Assembly (NCBI RefSeq): GCF_017742995.1
Contig: NZ_CP072425.1
Coordinates: forward strand, 1 to 64,000
Length of the DNA: 64,000 nt
Source: Pseudoalteromonas viridis
GTDB lineage: Bacteria; Pseudomonadota; Gammaproteobacteria; Enterobacterales; Alteromonadaceae
Direction: 5' to 3'
Shown here: positions 10,843-64,000 of the stretch, piece after piece
Numbering within the stretch: the stretch's first letter is position 1
How the letters are laid out: each line of letters starts with the position of its first letter
The notes under the pieces: generated by a model
Told to the model about the DNA's origin: nothing
The model's database searches: none
What the model saw: only the letters and a program-made list of their open reading frames with translations
Program-made: the position numbers and the translations under genes

Positions 10843-11985
10843 ATGAAACATTCTTTAATTTGCCTATCGATTGTAAGTGCCCTTTCCAGTACCGCCGCGT
10901 CTGCGTCAGAACCCGACTACCAGGGTGCAGCCGCTGAACTGGCAATTAACAACACCTGCATCGTCAGATTCGACGACAAAACAGAAAAACTAGATGTGGA
11001 GGGTAAGGCCAGAGGATTGCTGGCTCGCGCAAACGCTCAGGCAAAACACATTTATAAACATGCAATGAAAGGCATGGCAGTTAATATGAGCTGCGCGCAG
11101 GCGCGTGCCACTTTTGCAGCTGAGTCGGCCTCAATGCGCTTTACGCCAGACGGCGCCGTGTATGCCAGCCCGGCCAAAAAACTCGGCAAACCAGGTGGCG
11201 GTGGTTCGCAAGGCCAGACTATTCCATGGAGTGTCAGCCGCGTTGGTGGCCCAGTTGATGGCAGCGGTTATACCGCCTGGGTTATAGATACGGGTATCGA
11301 CGTTGACCACAGCGACCTCAATGTCGACAGCAACCGAGGCTTCAGCGCATTTAGTAAAGGTAAAAATGCCGGCGTGGACGACGGCAACGGTCATGGTACC
11401 CATGTCGCCGGCACCATTGCAGCATTAGATAACGGCATCGATGTGGTTGGTGTTGCCGCGGGCGCCACCGTGGTGCCGGTCAAAGTACTCGACTCTCGCG
11501 GCTCTGGCAGCTGGTCAGGTGTATTAGCGGGTATTGACCACGTTGCTGCCAATGCATCACCGGGGGACTGTGTCAACATGAGCCTGGGCGGTGGTTTCAA
11601 CCAGGAACTGAATGACGCCGTTGAAAGCGCAGCGCAACAATCAGGTGCATTCTTTGTAATTGCAGCCGGCAATGAAAGCCAGCATGCCAACAATGTTTCA
11701 CCTGCCAGTGCGTCACACCCGCGCGTGTATACTATCTCAGCGACAGATGCCAACGATCGCTTCGCCAGCTTCTCCAACTATGGCAATCCGCCGGTCGACT
11801 ATGCAGCACCGGGTGTCAGCATTTCATCAACACGCAGCGGCGGTGGCACAACCACCATGTCAGGGACGTCCATGGCATCACCCGCAGCCTGTGCCGTGAT
11901 CATGATGAGCAATGGCAACCCCAGAACGGATGGCCGCGCCAGTGGTGATCCGGATGGCAATGCCGACAGCATCATTCATTTATAA
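10843..11985 (+). CDS. Subtilisin-family (S8) secreted serine protease, 380 aa
   Basis: A signal peptide (MKHSLICLSIVSALSSTAASA) is followed by a propeptide-like region (residues about 30-105) and the S8 catalytic domain. The triad is visible: Asp in AWVIDTGIDVDHSDL, His in GNGHGTHVAG and Ser in SGTSMASP; the oxyanion Asn lies in VIAAGN. The ATG at 10843 has AGGAAG upstream. Unusually, the widely conserved SMASPHVAG reads SMASPAACAV here, losing the His-Val-Ala-Gly helix start while keeping the nucleophile. There is no C-terminal domain beyond the catalytic fold. It is a free-standing gene, probably producing an extracellular protease. Confidence 0.93.
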   Translation: MKHSLICLSIVSALSSTAASASEPDYQGAAAELAINNTCIVRFDDKTEKLDVEGKARGLLARANAQAKHIYKHAMKGMAVNMSCAQARATFAAESASMRFTPDGAVYASPAKKLGKPGGGGSQGQTIPWSVSRVGGPVDGSGYTAWVIDTGIDVDHSDLNVDSNRGFSAFSKGKNAGVDDGNGHGTHVAGTIAALDNGIDVVGVAAGATVVPVKVLDSRGSGSWSGVLAGIDHVAANASPGDCVNMSLGGGFNQELNDAVESAAQQSGAFFVIAAGNESQHANNVSPASASHPRVYTISATDANDRFASFSNYGNPPVDYAAPGVSISSTRSGGGTTTMSGTSMASPAACAVIMMSNGNPRTDGRASGDPDGNADSIIHL

Positions 11986-13391: not shown

Positions 13392-14051
13392 TTAGTACTT
13401 ACCACCCTGTTCATTTGAACTGGTTACAATCTCCCCCTGATAGAGCTGATTGCGACCACTGCCGCCGTTAAGGGTGTCGTAACCCGTGCCACCGGCGAGG
13501 ATATCATTGCCCTCTTTGCCTTCGAGTACATCTTTGTCATCGCCGCCTATCAGTGTGTCGTTGCCACTGCCACCGACCAGCTTATCACGCCCGGCAAACC
13601 CCCTGAGCTTATCGTTGCCGGCACCACCAAATAACCGGTCCGAACCGCGCCCACCCATTACTTCATCGTCACCGCTACCAGCCCAGATGTGCTGCTCAGT
13701 GGCCATAGCACGACCGTCGTAGCTGTCGTCGCCTTCGCTCAGATAAACGTGAATTTGCTCAACCTGATTGGCATAAATAAATACACAGCTGGCACTGTCC
13801 GAGGTCGCTCTCATCACTTTAATGCGCCGACCGTCCAGGGTTAGCCGGTACGTTTCTGCCTCCGGCGTACCAACAATATTAAGCACCACGATGTGCCTGA
13901 CCGATTTCACTGCGCGCAAAGACATGCGCTTTAATTCGACAATGGCGCCTCCTCCCAGTCCGACGCACACGCCATCGGATGCAATCGCACCACGAGCACT
14001 AAGTATGCCCATAAGACCCAATAAAAACGCCACTAAGACCCGCTTAACCAT
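13392..14051 (-). CDS. Small exported RTX-repeat protein, 219 aa
   Basis: A good signal peptide (MVKRVLVAFLLGLMGILSARGAIA) precedes a non-repetitive domain (residues about 25-115) and about eight RTX nonapeptides (GSGDDEVMGGRGSDRLFGG and following) near the C-terminus. Combining a Sec-type signal with RTX repeats points to export via the periplasm, rather than classic type I secretion. A second RTX gene lies 10 kb away in the left-end operon. The gene converges with the S24 repressor, the two stops being 12 bases apart. Function unknown, probably calcium-stabilised outside the cytoplasm. Confidence 0.85.
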   Translation of the reverse strand: MVKRVLVAFLLGLMGILSARGAIASDGVCVGLGGGAIVELKRMSLRAVKSVRHIVVLNIVGTPEAETYRLTLDGRRIKVMRATSDSASCVFIYANQVEQIHVYLSEGDDSYDGRAMATEQHIWAGSGDDEVMGGRGSDRLFGGAGNDKLRGFAGRDKLVGGSGNDTLIGGDDKDVLEGKEGNDILAGGTGYDTLNGGSGRNQLYQGEIVTSSNEQGGKY

Positions 14052-14325
14052 ATCCCTACACCCTTTTGAAAGCGTTGTTTAATCTGCCTGAGTGAAACCA
14101 GATACCGAACTAATACCTGTATCACTTATAACCAGATTACCTACTGTCACTCTAGCGACACAGTGTGGACACAATGTGCAGATGTAACACGGGGAGTTCA
14201 TTTTAGTTTAGCTGCTCGGCAGAAGAATGGTGAGGCGAAACAATATGGAAAGTATGGCGGCTATATTAGAGGGGCGAGTGTTCAGTGAGAGCCCATGACT
14301 GAGCTCTACGGTTAAGAAAGCCGGT

Positions 14326-14487
14326 TTAGCACTCACATGCCCAGTAGCGATTACCTGTCTGTGATTGCGGTGGCGGATTACAGCGGTATGAATGCGCACC
14401 TCCCGCTACATTAGGAGTTTGTTGCTGTGCCAGTTGTTGCGTATCTGTAAGGCGCTTTAATGCTGATTTTTTGATTTGTAATTTCAT
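14326..14487 (-). CDS. Small peptide precursor with double-glycine leader and Cys-containing core (RiPP/bacteriocin-like), 53 aa
   Basis: The frame begins at an ATG at 14487 with AAGGA seven bases upstream and ends with TAA at 14326. The first 30 residues are a basic then Gln-rich leader (MKLQIKKSALKRLTDT...) ending in NVAGG, the classical Gly-Gly processing site of exported peptides. The 23-residue core, AHSYRCNPPPQ to NRYWACEC, has cysteines at 36, 51 and 53 plus three consecutive prolines. This layout is typical of precursors cleaved by C39-peptidase ABC exporters. No modifying enzyme, exporter or immunity gene is adjacent; the VOC gene lies 97 bases upstream on the same strand. Could be an orphan precursor served by machinery elsewhere. 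Confidence 0.72.
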   Translation of the reverse strand: MKLQIKKSALKRLTDTQQLAQQQTPNVAGGAHSYRCNPPPQSQTGNRYWACEC

Positions 14488-14584
14488 TTTCTTGTCCTTG
14501 AGTTGAATTTTTTATGGCCAAAAAAAGACCACAAGAATCAACCTGACATTTTAACCACAATAAATCAACAATTATTTTACCAAA

Positions 14585-15052
14585 CTATGAGTCGTCCGTC
14601 ATCCATTCAGCCATGCGCGCTATTATTTCTTGCTCAGTTAAGTCTTCCTGGTGCGTGCCTAAGGTCCAGACATGACCAAACGGGTCCTGCAATGTACCCG
14701 CTCTGTCGCCATAAAATTGATCCACCACAGGCCGTAACTCGGTCGCCCCGGCTGCAATCGCCTGAGCAAAGGTATTGTCGACATCGGGCACGTACAGCAT
14801 CAAACTAACGGGTGTACCACCGAGTTGTTGCGGACTCTTAAAATGCATATCCGGACACATATCTGACAACATCAGATGAGAATCACCTATTTTGAGCTCG
14901 GCATGCGCCACGCCGCCATCCGGCATTGGCAGCTGCATGATCAGCTCCGCAGCAAAAGCCTTGCGGTAAAAGTCTATCGCCTGAGCCGCGTTTTCGGTGA
15001 TCAGATAGGGCGTCAGAGCGTGGTAGCCGTCCGGTATCGCTGAAACTGTCAT
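14585..15052 (-). CDS. VOC-superfamily (glyoxalase/PhnB-like) protein, 155 aa
   Basis: The start at 15052 is supported by GAGGA seven bases upstream; the frame extends further but without a site. The sequence fits PhnB-like members of the vicinal oxygen chelate fold: HALTPYLITENAAQAIDFYRKAF at the start, DSHLMLSDM in the middle, and LQDPFGHVWTLGTHQEDL near the end. Such proteins are small dimeric metal-binding or binding-only proteins, often annotated as glyoxalase/bleomycin-resistance-like; the true substrate cannot be told from sequence. The double-glycine peptide gene follows 97 bases downstream on the same strand. Confidence 0.88.
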   Translation of the reverse strand: MTVSAIPDGYHALTPYLITENAAQAIDFYRKAFAAELIMQLPMPDGGVAHAELKIGDSHLMLSDMCPDMHFKSPQQLGGTPVSLMLYVPDVDNTFAQAIAAGATELRPVVDQFYGDRAGTLQDPFGHVWTLGTHQEDLTEQEIIARMAEWMTDDS

Positions 15053-15288
15053 GATGATTTCCTCGCAAGTTAGACACAGTGCCATGACTTATCTTTTGGC
15101 CACACGCATAGTCACGTGCATGCCAAATCGCTCGTCAGACATTCTGATCATTTAAAGCTAGTCCAGTTCACCGAAAAGTCGAGTGAAACCCCAGCTCAAC
15201 ACAAATCACCACAGCGTGTGTTCATGCCTTTTTCGGCGCCACAAAAAGCGCTAAACTAGGCGCTTTTAAGCCCGACAGTGAGAGCACG

Positions 15289-63571: not shown

Positions 63572-64000
63572 AAACATTGAGCCGAGTTTGCCGAAGTTAG
63601 GCTCTAACACAGGTTTGCCATGCTCACTCTGAGGTTAGCAAGACTCTGTCAGGCATCCGGCTGTGAACTTCAGCCAGAATTGAACCACAGTGCAAGAGTA
63701 CGCGGTCGGCTGGCTTTGGAAAATAGCGCGCAACGCAGTGTACTGGGGATAATTGATAGCAGCAGGCTCACTCAAATGATGACCCTGCTGCGTTTGCTAT
63801 GTGCCGTTCAAGCCATTATGGGAATCAAATCTATTGATAAGAGTTTCCATTAGAGCAATAGCTTACACACATGGCGTTACTCAACTGTACTTAGCAAAGA
63901 GTAGTTCTGCAGCAGCCTGTACCTTGGTAGGTATAAAGCTGAGAGTTGCAACCCTGAGCTTTATTCGTGAAGCAATGCATAGTATTGCAGATATTGCCCG
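63572..64000. other. Right-end stretch without a confident gene
   Basis: A short hairpin-like GAGCC...GGCTC (63577-63603) lies just past the regulator gene. An open frame at 63620-63853 has no ribosome site or recognisable protein. Frames that run to the window edge on both strands near 63850-64000 cannot be judged. Confidence 0.4.

Follow-up and report, generated by a model that had tools for sequence, protein, structure and literature searches.

Within the window, by which we mean the whole stretch analysed (the first 64,000 nucleotides of contig NZ_CP072425.1 of Pseudoalteromonas viridis), a small gene at positions 14326-14487 is confirmed as a real gene, not a chance frame, and its product is very probably a class I lanthipeptide precursor that is matured in trans, within a dispersed-precursor, prochlorosin-like system. 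The preliminary description had proposed that the peptide, with its double-glycine leader, is the precursor of a bacteriocin or RiPP and has a C39 partner; this is supported here and sharpened to a class I lanthipeptide precursor, an antimicrobial (bacteriocin) role being only putative. Hidden from it were a family of 30 such peptides in the genome and a single, distant locus containing LanB, LanC, LanT and HlyD. The relevant features of the window are the following.

14326..14487, minus strand: precursor peptide gene, 53 codons and stop (full-length matches in 27 further genomes; dN/dS 0.02-0.13)
14398..14487, minus strand: leader, residues 1-30, with Gly-Gly at its end (leader profile E 1.1e-14)
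14329..14397, minus strand: core, residues 31-53, with 3 Cys and 3 Ser/Thr (Cys invariant in 28 sequences)
14495..14499, minus strand: Shine-Dalgarno AAGGA (from the sequence; invariant in 7 aligned loci)
14574..14602, minus strand: promoter-like hexamers, a consensus match only (9 of 12 positions, weak evidence)
63891..64000, minus strand: 3' portion of a second member of this leader family (its start lies beyond the window, at C1:64118)

The gene is read from 14487 to 14326 on the minus strand, the strand having been left unstated before, and the plus strand in the same register is closed by stops. Its translation consists of a leader, MKLQIKKSALKRLTDTQQLAQQQTPNVAGG, and a core, AHSYRCNPPPQSQTGNRYWACEC. 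The anatomy described from the letters alone is borne out in all its parts: AAGGA (14499-14495) is found 7 bases 5' of the ATG, the leader ends in Gly29-Gly30, and the 23-residue core carries Cys36, Cys51 and Cys53 together with three consecutive prolines (Pro38-39-40). Two promoter-like sites, one per strand, were detected in the precursor region (shuffle mean 0.7), and no terminator-like match was found for the gene. A known RNA element was rejected, as the region 13900-15100 had no Rfam match at the gathering threshold; Pfam likewise gave no family for the peptide. The flanking genes are, as we take them to be by reading the sequence, a VOC-family-like gene (14585-15085) and an RTX-like gene (13392-14051, minus strand), the latter apparently coding for a short protein with RTX-like repeats. 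Also near the precursor is a putative subtilase-like protease gene (10843-11985, plus strand), again named by reading.

The precursor is conserved in the genus. A protein search at E <= 0.1 matched 49 of 108 Pseudoalteromonas genomes, and in 28 of them (own genome included) the best match spans residues 1-53, the 27 others being 48-98% identical. In the alignment of these 28 sequences, Cys36, Pro39, Thr44, Cys51 and Cys53 of the core are invariant and Gly45, Asn46 and Trp49 are at least 90% conserved. Pooled dN/dS values, calculated for 18 of the 28 sequences in three clades named by us, were 0.04 (leader) and 0.13 (core) in the rubra clade, 0.08 and 0.10 in the flavipulchra clade and 0.02 and 0.08 in the luteoviolacea clade, bearing in mind that pairs within a clade are not independent and that synonymous sites are near saturation in the rubra clade. 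A lack of conservation in relatives, which the preliminary description had named as evidence against its proposal, is thus not what we see: leader and core are both conserved, under dN/dS of 0.02-0.13. Scanning named genomes brought up 17 relatives, none of them outside Pseudoalteromonas. The surroundings of the gene were compared at 27 loci (1.5-4 kb per side). The eight P. rubra-group loci (L022-L029) all share the VOC gene, the RTX-like gene and the next downstream gene, the eight P. flavipulchra-group loci have the VOC gene alone among the queried flank genes, and at the remaining 11 none of the other eight queried flank genes was found. Since the flanking genes differ between groups, the same core is found at different genomic places.

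In its own genome the precursor is one of many. A profile built from 20 own-genome leaders, the 14326-14487 leader itself being one of its rows, matched 30 places of the 5.55-Mb genome at E <= 2.2e-4, with the next at 0.36; our precursor had the best value (1.1e-14) among the 33 places listed. The 30 matches correspond to 26 loci on both replicons, with four pairs of precursors 348-874 bases apart and the other loci at least 14.8 kb from each other. The consensus of the 20 leaders is MKLxLKKKxLKxLxxxxxLxxxQTPQVAGG, with Lys11, Leu13, Thr24 and Gly29 invariant, and leaders end in GG or GA, as in C39 substrates. A different Cys/Ser/Thr core follows at each of the 30 places. Cys is present in all 30 cores, always accompanied by at least as many Ser/Thr, and accounts for 11.5% of core residues vs. 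0.2% of leader residues. The first residue was set by script or by hand in three of the peptides (L105, L115 and L116), one of which, L115, lacks a standard start codon there. The second precursor at the end of the window (63891-64000, minus strand) has a core with 7 Cys.

Curated families describe these peptides poorly. The model lant_leader_L1a gave 9.5 bits (E 1.1; cut-off 22) for the 14326-14487 peptide and was touched by two of the 30 (best E 0.089), lant_leader_L1b by three (best E 0.0011), and the rSAM-RiPP model TIGR04149 and RiPP_CPAC by one each (1.1e-4 and 0.0034); the idea of one curated family covering all 30 was rejected, the matches being scattered and weak. A promoter motif common to the paralogues was also rejected, as the k-mers upstream of the 30 yielded mainly the ribosome site. 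Against 5.8 billion proteins, a profile of the 30 peptides recovered 63 relatives, many without a name, the names shown being "hypothetical" or "uncharacterized" protein and, in one UniRef entry, "Bacteriocin".

C39-peptidase and LanC have one match each in the genome, and the two are adjacent, 1.2 Mb from the precursor on the same replicon, in a locus (L053) with the gene order HlyD-like (414 aa), C39-ABC exporter (714 aa), LanC (406 aa) and LanB (1049 aa). This fits the earlier remark that no processing genes adjoin the precursor. A stand-alone bacteriocin cassette at the precursor was rejected because the lone C39 match is so far away; the adjacent C39 exporter that goes with an unmodified double-glycine bacteriocin is not found there. 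Neither did we recognise an immunity gene when reading the ORFs of 8-22 kb, although such proteins are often unrecognisable. LanB combines the glutamylation and elimination domains of class I in one protein (PF04738, E 2e-135, residues 44-693; PF14028, E 8.3e-63, residues 767-1041) and matches the solved structures 9G04, 5EHK (lantibiotic dehydratase) and NisB 4WD9, its RPTPFGLFSG stretch aligning with both displayed relatives. LanC is a stand-alone cyclase (PF05147, E 1.6e-37) whose WCYG and CHG align with 8BYK and contain the Cys, Cys-His residues that we take to be the zinc ligands. For the exporter, an alignment with the bacteriocin exporter 8VP3 takes in the C39 region as well. Together with a leader and a core bearing Ser/Thr and Cys, these are components expected of a class I system. 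The LanC-domain match sits in a frame of 413 aa, too short for LanM, and no class II LanM (ProcM) enzyme was recognised in the genome. The own-genome leader match nearest to the enzymes is at C1:1219353, across a gene that, by reading, is presumably glmU. A lanthipeptide region of P. viridis BBR56 chromosome 1 has been published (1,199,639-1,224,010), with LanB, LanC and C39 genes listed and a 48% similarity score to the thalassomonasins A/B cluster of Thalassomonas actiniarum; the accessible part of that paper makes no mention of scattered precursors (PMC11015633). Our LanB (in L053:6640-14614) fits this region, starting at C1:1,209,639, exactly 10,000 bases into it, and the strain from which the window comes is therefore very probably BBR56.

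The order of residues in the cores follows the logic of lanthionine formation. If a dehydrated Ser or Thr is to be attacked by a downstream Cys, each Cys needs its own N-terminal Ser/Thr. In the 30 own cores, 100 of 100 Cys can be paired with a distinct upstream Ser/Thr at least two residues away, against 66 when the same cores are read backwards, 72.7 +/- 4.6 in full shuffles and 89.4 +/- 2.6 when Cys are held and the rest is shuffled (100 was reached in none of 5000 shuffles of either kind). A second set was assembled from 40 places picked from the genus list outside the closest clade, with no random draw (44 rows before cut-off and artefact rows were dropped), and reduced to 22 cores by removing those with similarity >= 0.7 to each other or to own cores, some of the 22 being still related. 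Here 75 of 76 Cys were paired, vs. 53.8 +/- 4.0 in full shuffles and 67.0 +/- 2.4 with Cys held (0 of 5000 in each). Among the 28 orthologues of the 14326-14487 peptide all 84 Cys have a distinct upstream Ser/Thr, and their three Cys are accompanied by exactly three Ser/Thr in 25 sequences and by four in the other three. Judged from sequence, such an arrangement would be expected for lanthionines, and it offers no ground for expecting disulfides.

Across Pseudoalteromonas the leader and LanC go together. LanC was over the cut-off in 50 of the 108 genomes and all 50 had the leader (E <= 0.01), which was found in 52 genomes in total; 56 had neither. The leader without LanC appeared in G001 (E 2.3e-8) and G096 (E 0.0026), with one match each, and G017 had a LanC match below the cut-off and no leader. 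Two genomes lacking LanC (G078 and G080), outside the 52 with profile matches, had one weak match each to the single-peptide query at E <= 0.1. The co-occurrence has a Fisher p of 7e-29, uncorrected for shared ancestry, and among related genomes it is in part a matter of inheritance. C39 was present in 31 genomes that were LanC-negative, of which only one had a leader match, as did one of the 15 with a strong C39 (E <= 1e-29, a limit of our choosing): leader presence tracks LanC, not C39. The 50 LanC genomes had from at least 1 to at least 67 leaders (median at least 21.5), with 10 or more in 41 of them. These counts are lower bounds, because the genus search applied a stricter first look than the own-genome search and scored at most 75 candidates per genome; applied to our genome, the genus-type search had 55 candidates and 28 matches, vs. 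96 and 30 in the own-genome search.

The two are also linked physically. We examined 20 loci of relatives: 19 taken around LanC and one, from the LanC-negative G001, around its C39 gene. Relatives of LanB, LanC, LanT and HlyD were present in 19 out of 19 LanC loci, while the G001 locus had only LanT and HlyD relatives and one weak frame resembling the leader (E 0.015). Four of the 19 (L134, L140, L146, L153) have a precursor between LanC and LanT, and in L135, L136 and L137 one adjoins LanC. In L141, L142, L144, L145 and L147-L151 a leader frame, sometimes weak, is found elsewhere in the stretch; three stretches (L139, L143, L152) had none. The check proposed beforehand, a search for the leader in related genomes next to C39 transporters, thus turned out as hoped, the leader being conserved in relatives and in some lying beside such transporters. 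Not all the cores have Cys, which is absent behind the leader in L137 and L144. In L141:589-807 and L145:168-374, ca. 5 kb from LanB/LanC, the leader is followed by Cys-free, Thr-rich NTDTVTQ repeats, whose products are possibly dehydrated but ring-free. The leader is therefore no guarantee of rings, and it could be mainly a signal for export or LanB, rings being optional.

Outside the genus, where at most 20 candidates were scored per genome, leaders at E <= 0.001 were found in 34 of 395 genomes and 11 of 52 genera of the wider family (own genus included). Around leader matches in other genera we examined six loci: in three genera (L196, L197, L199) precursors sit beside LanB, LanC, LanT and HlyD, and in one further genus (L194, L195, L198) precursors are present but none of these four was found in the stretch.

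We propose the following route, in which expression and any biological activity of the precursor are likewise presumed. The common leader would be recognised in trans by the one LanB found beside LanC, which would dehydrate Ser33, Ser42 and Thr44 in a tRNA-Glu-dependent manner. LanC would then add Cys36, Cys51 and Cys53 to the dehydro residues, closing as many as three (methyl)lanthionine rings. Cleavage after Gly-Gly would fall to the C39 domain of the LanT-type exporter, and secretion of the peptide to the ABC/HlyD pair. About 30 dispersed precursors, differing in their cores, would all pass through this one set of enzymes.

The alternative that deserves most attention, even if we consider it unlikely, is that the peptide is an unmodified double-glycine product, cut and exported by LanT, with its Cys in disulfides or binding a metal, and that LanB and LanC act only on precursors of their own locus. 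The GG or GA ending of the leaders would suit it, as would the Cys-less cores of some relatives, and in the three closest relatives examined (L139, L143, L144) the exporter is the best conserved enzyme (97.9-98.6% vs. 86.9-88.9% for LanC). However, the leader follows LanC and not C39, with a single leader-bearing genome among the 31 that have C39 and lack LanC. Besides, Ser/Thr precede Cys far more often than in shuffles, and the number of Cys is odd in 16 of the 30 own cores, that of 14326-14487 included.

Less probable still is that the gene is a paralogue in decay or orphaned, once a lanthipeptide precursor but since deprived of expression or maturation. The weakness of the promoter-like match, the missing terminator-like match and the L115 leader with its non-standard start speak for such decay, but the frame is intact, its three Cys are kept in 28 sequences and dN/dS is well below 1. 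As for a chance open reading frame, it is short, and searching 5.8 billion proteins with the one sequence turned up just 3 relatives, but conservation and selection contradict this explanation and we give it hardly any credence.

A lanthipeptide precursor matured in trans brings to mind the prochlorosins and synechococsins (ProcA, SyncA; ProcM, SyncM) of marine picocyanobacteria (PMC10783134, PMC3951391, PMC7268733), with which the P. viridis family shares a conserved GG leader, hypervariable Cys-bearing cores and tens of scattered precursors (30 leader matches to one LanC, as counts of genes), and also, as we propose, one promiscuous modifying machinery. However, prochlorosins depend on a class II LanM and Nif11-type leaders, whereas P. 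viridis has separate LanB and LanC and an unrelated short basic leader; Nif11 is not one of the 7 Pfam families listed when the 30 peptides were searched. The FNLD motif and Pro at -2 of nisin-type leaders (PMC3951391) are both absent from the 14326-14487 leader. Class I clusters with a bifunctional C39 LanT, such as those of salivaricin, Corallococcus coralloides and others (PMC3951391), also have LanB, LanC and a double-glycine precursor, but there the precursor is inside the cluster and, in the parts of the source available, no dispersed family is described, vs. the dispersed one of P. viridis. In the same genus, pseudorosins A-C (PsfB) of Pseudoalteromonas flavipulchra S16 are class I lanthipeptides (PMC12819058, PMC10885120), likened here from a brief description, and PciA/PciC of Pseudoalteromonas citrea DSM 8771 is a class I LanA expressed and modified in E. 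coli (PMC9993889), which, compared by its description, is presented as one gene cluster. A review mentions a class I lanthipeptide of Pedobacter lusitanus and cites estimates that place ProcM-type cluster homologues in many groups, the gammaproteobacteria among them (PMC12328550). In the literature searched, subscription papers being largely outside it, we found no account of class I precursors dispersed in this way in Pseudoalteromonas. Class I lanthipeptides were already known in the genus; the prochlorosin-like dispersed layout with class I enzymes may be new.

We also lean, with less assurance than for the precursor itself, towards a broader interpretation: a natural combinatorial class I system in which single-gene precursors spread over the genome form a library, matured by one substrate-tolerant LanB/LanC pair and one C39 exporter. 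This library would diversify in the core and sit at different places in each species and, extending beyond the genus (10 other genera), it would give marine gammaproteobacteria a class I equivalent of the prochlorosins. Cluster mining scans a few genes around LanC and therefore finds no precursor beyond one next to the enzymes; as Walker et al. (2020) point out, a search limited to seven genes from LanC overlooks distant precursors such as prochlorosins (PMC7268733). If we are right, many Pseudoalteromonas have the majority of their lanthipeptides out of sight among proteins that are unnamed or called "hypothetical", and the genus would offer a class I enzyme pair able to accept dozens of natural substrates, in which the basis of tolerance in separate LanB and LanC could be addressed directly. 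The purpose of such peptide libraries would also be open to direct study.

Some further observations concern individual relatives. In 10 of the 50 LanC genomes (G007, G018, G024, G051, G052, G054, G062, G093, G094 and G095) the LanC domain is matched once more, in a frame of 890-931 aa that may be LanM- or LanKC-like; our genome has no further match of this kind. Genome G107 has two LanC-like genes in tandem with one LanB beside them (L149:6023-8659). In P. piscicida (L133) a match to residues 1-30 lies on a contig labelled as plasmid, and a plasmid-borne relative of the leader would offer a route for spread. Finally, L195:8944-9755 contains two tandem precursors in which the leaders and the first part of the cores are identical and then diverge, which suggests a recent duplication followed by recombination or a frameshift.
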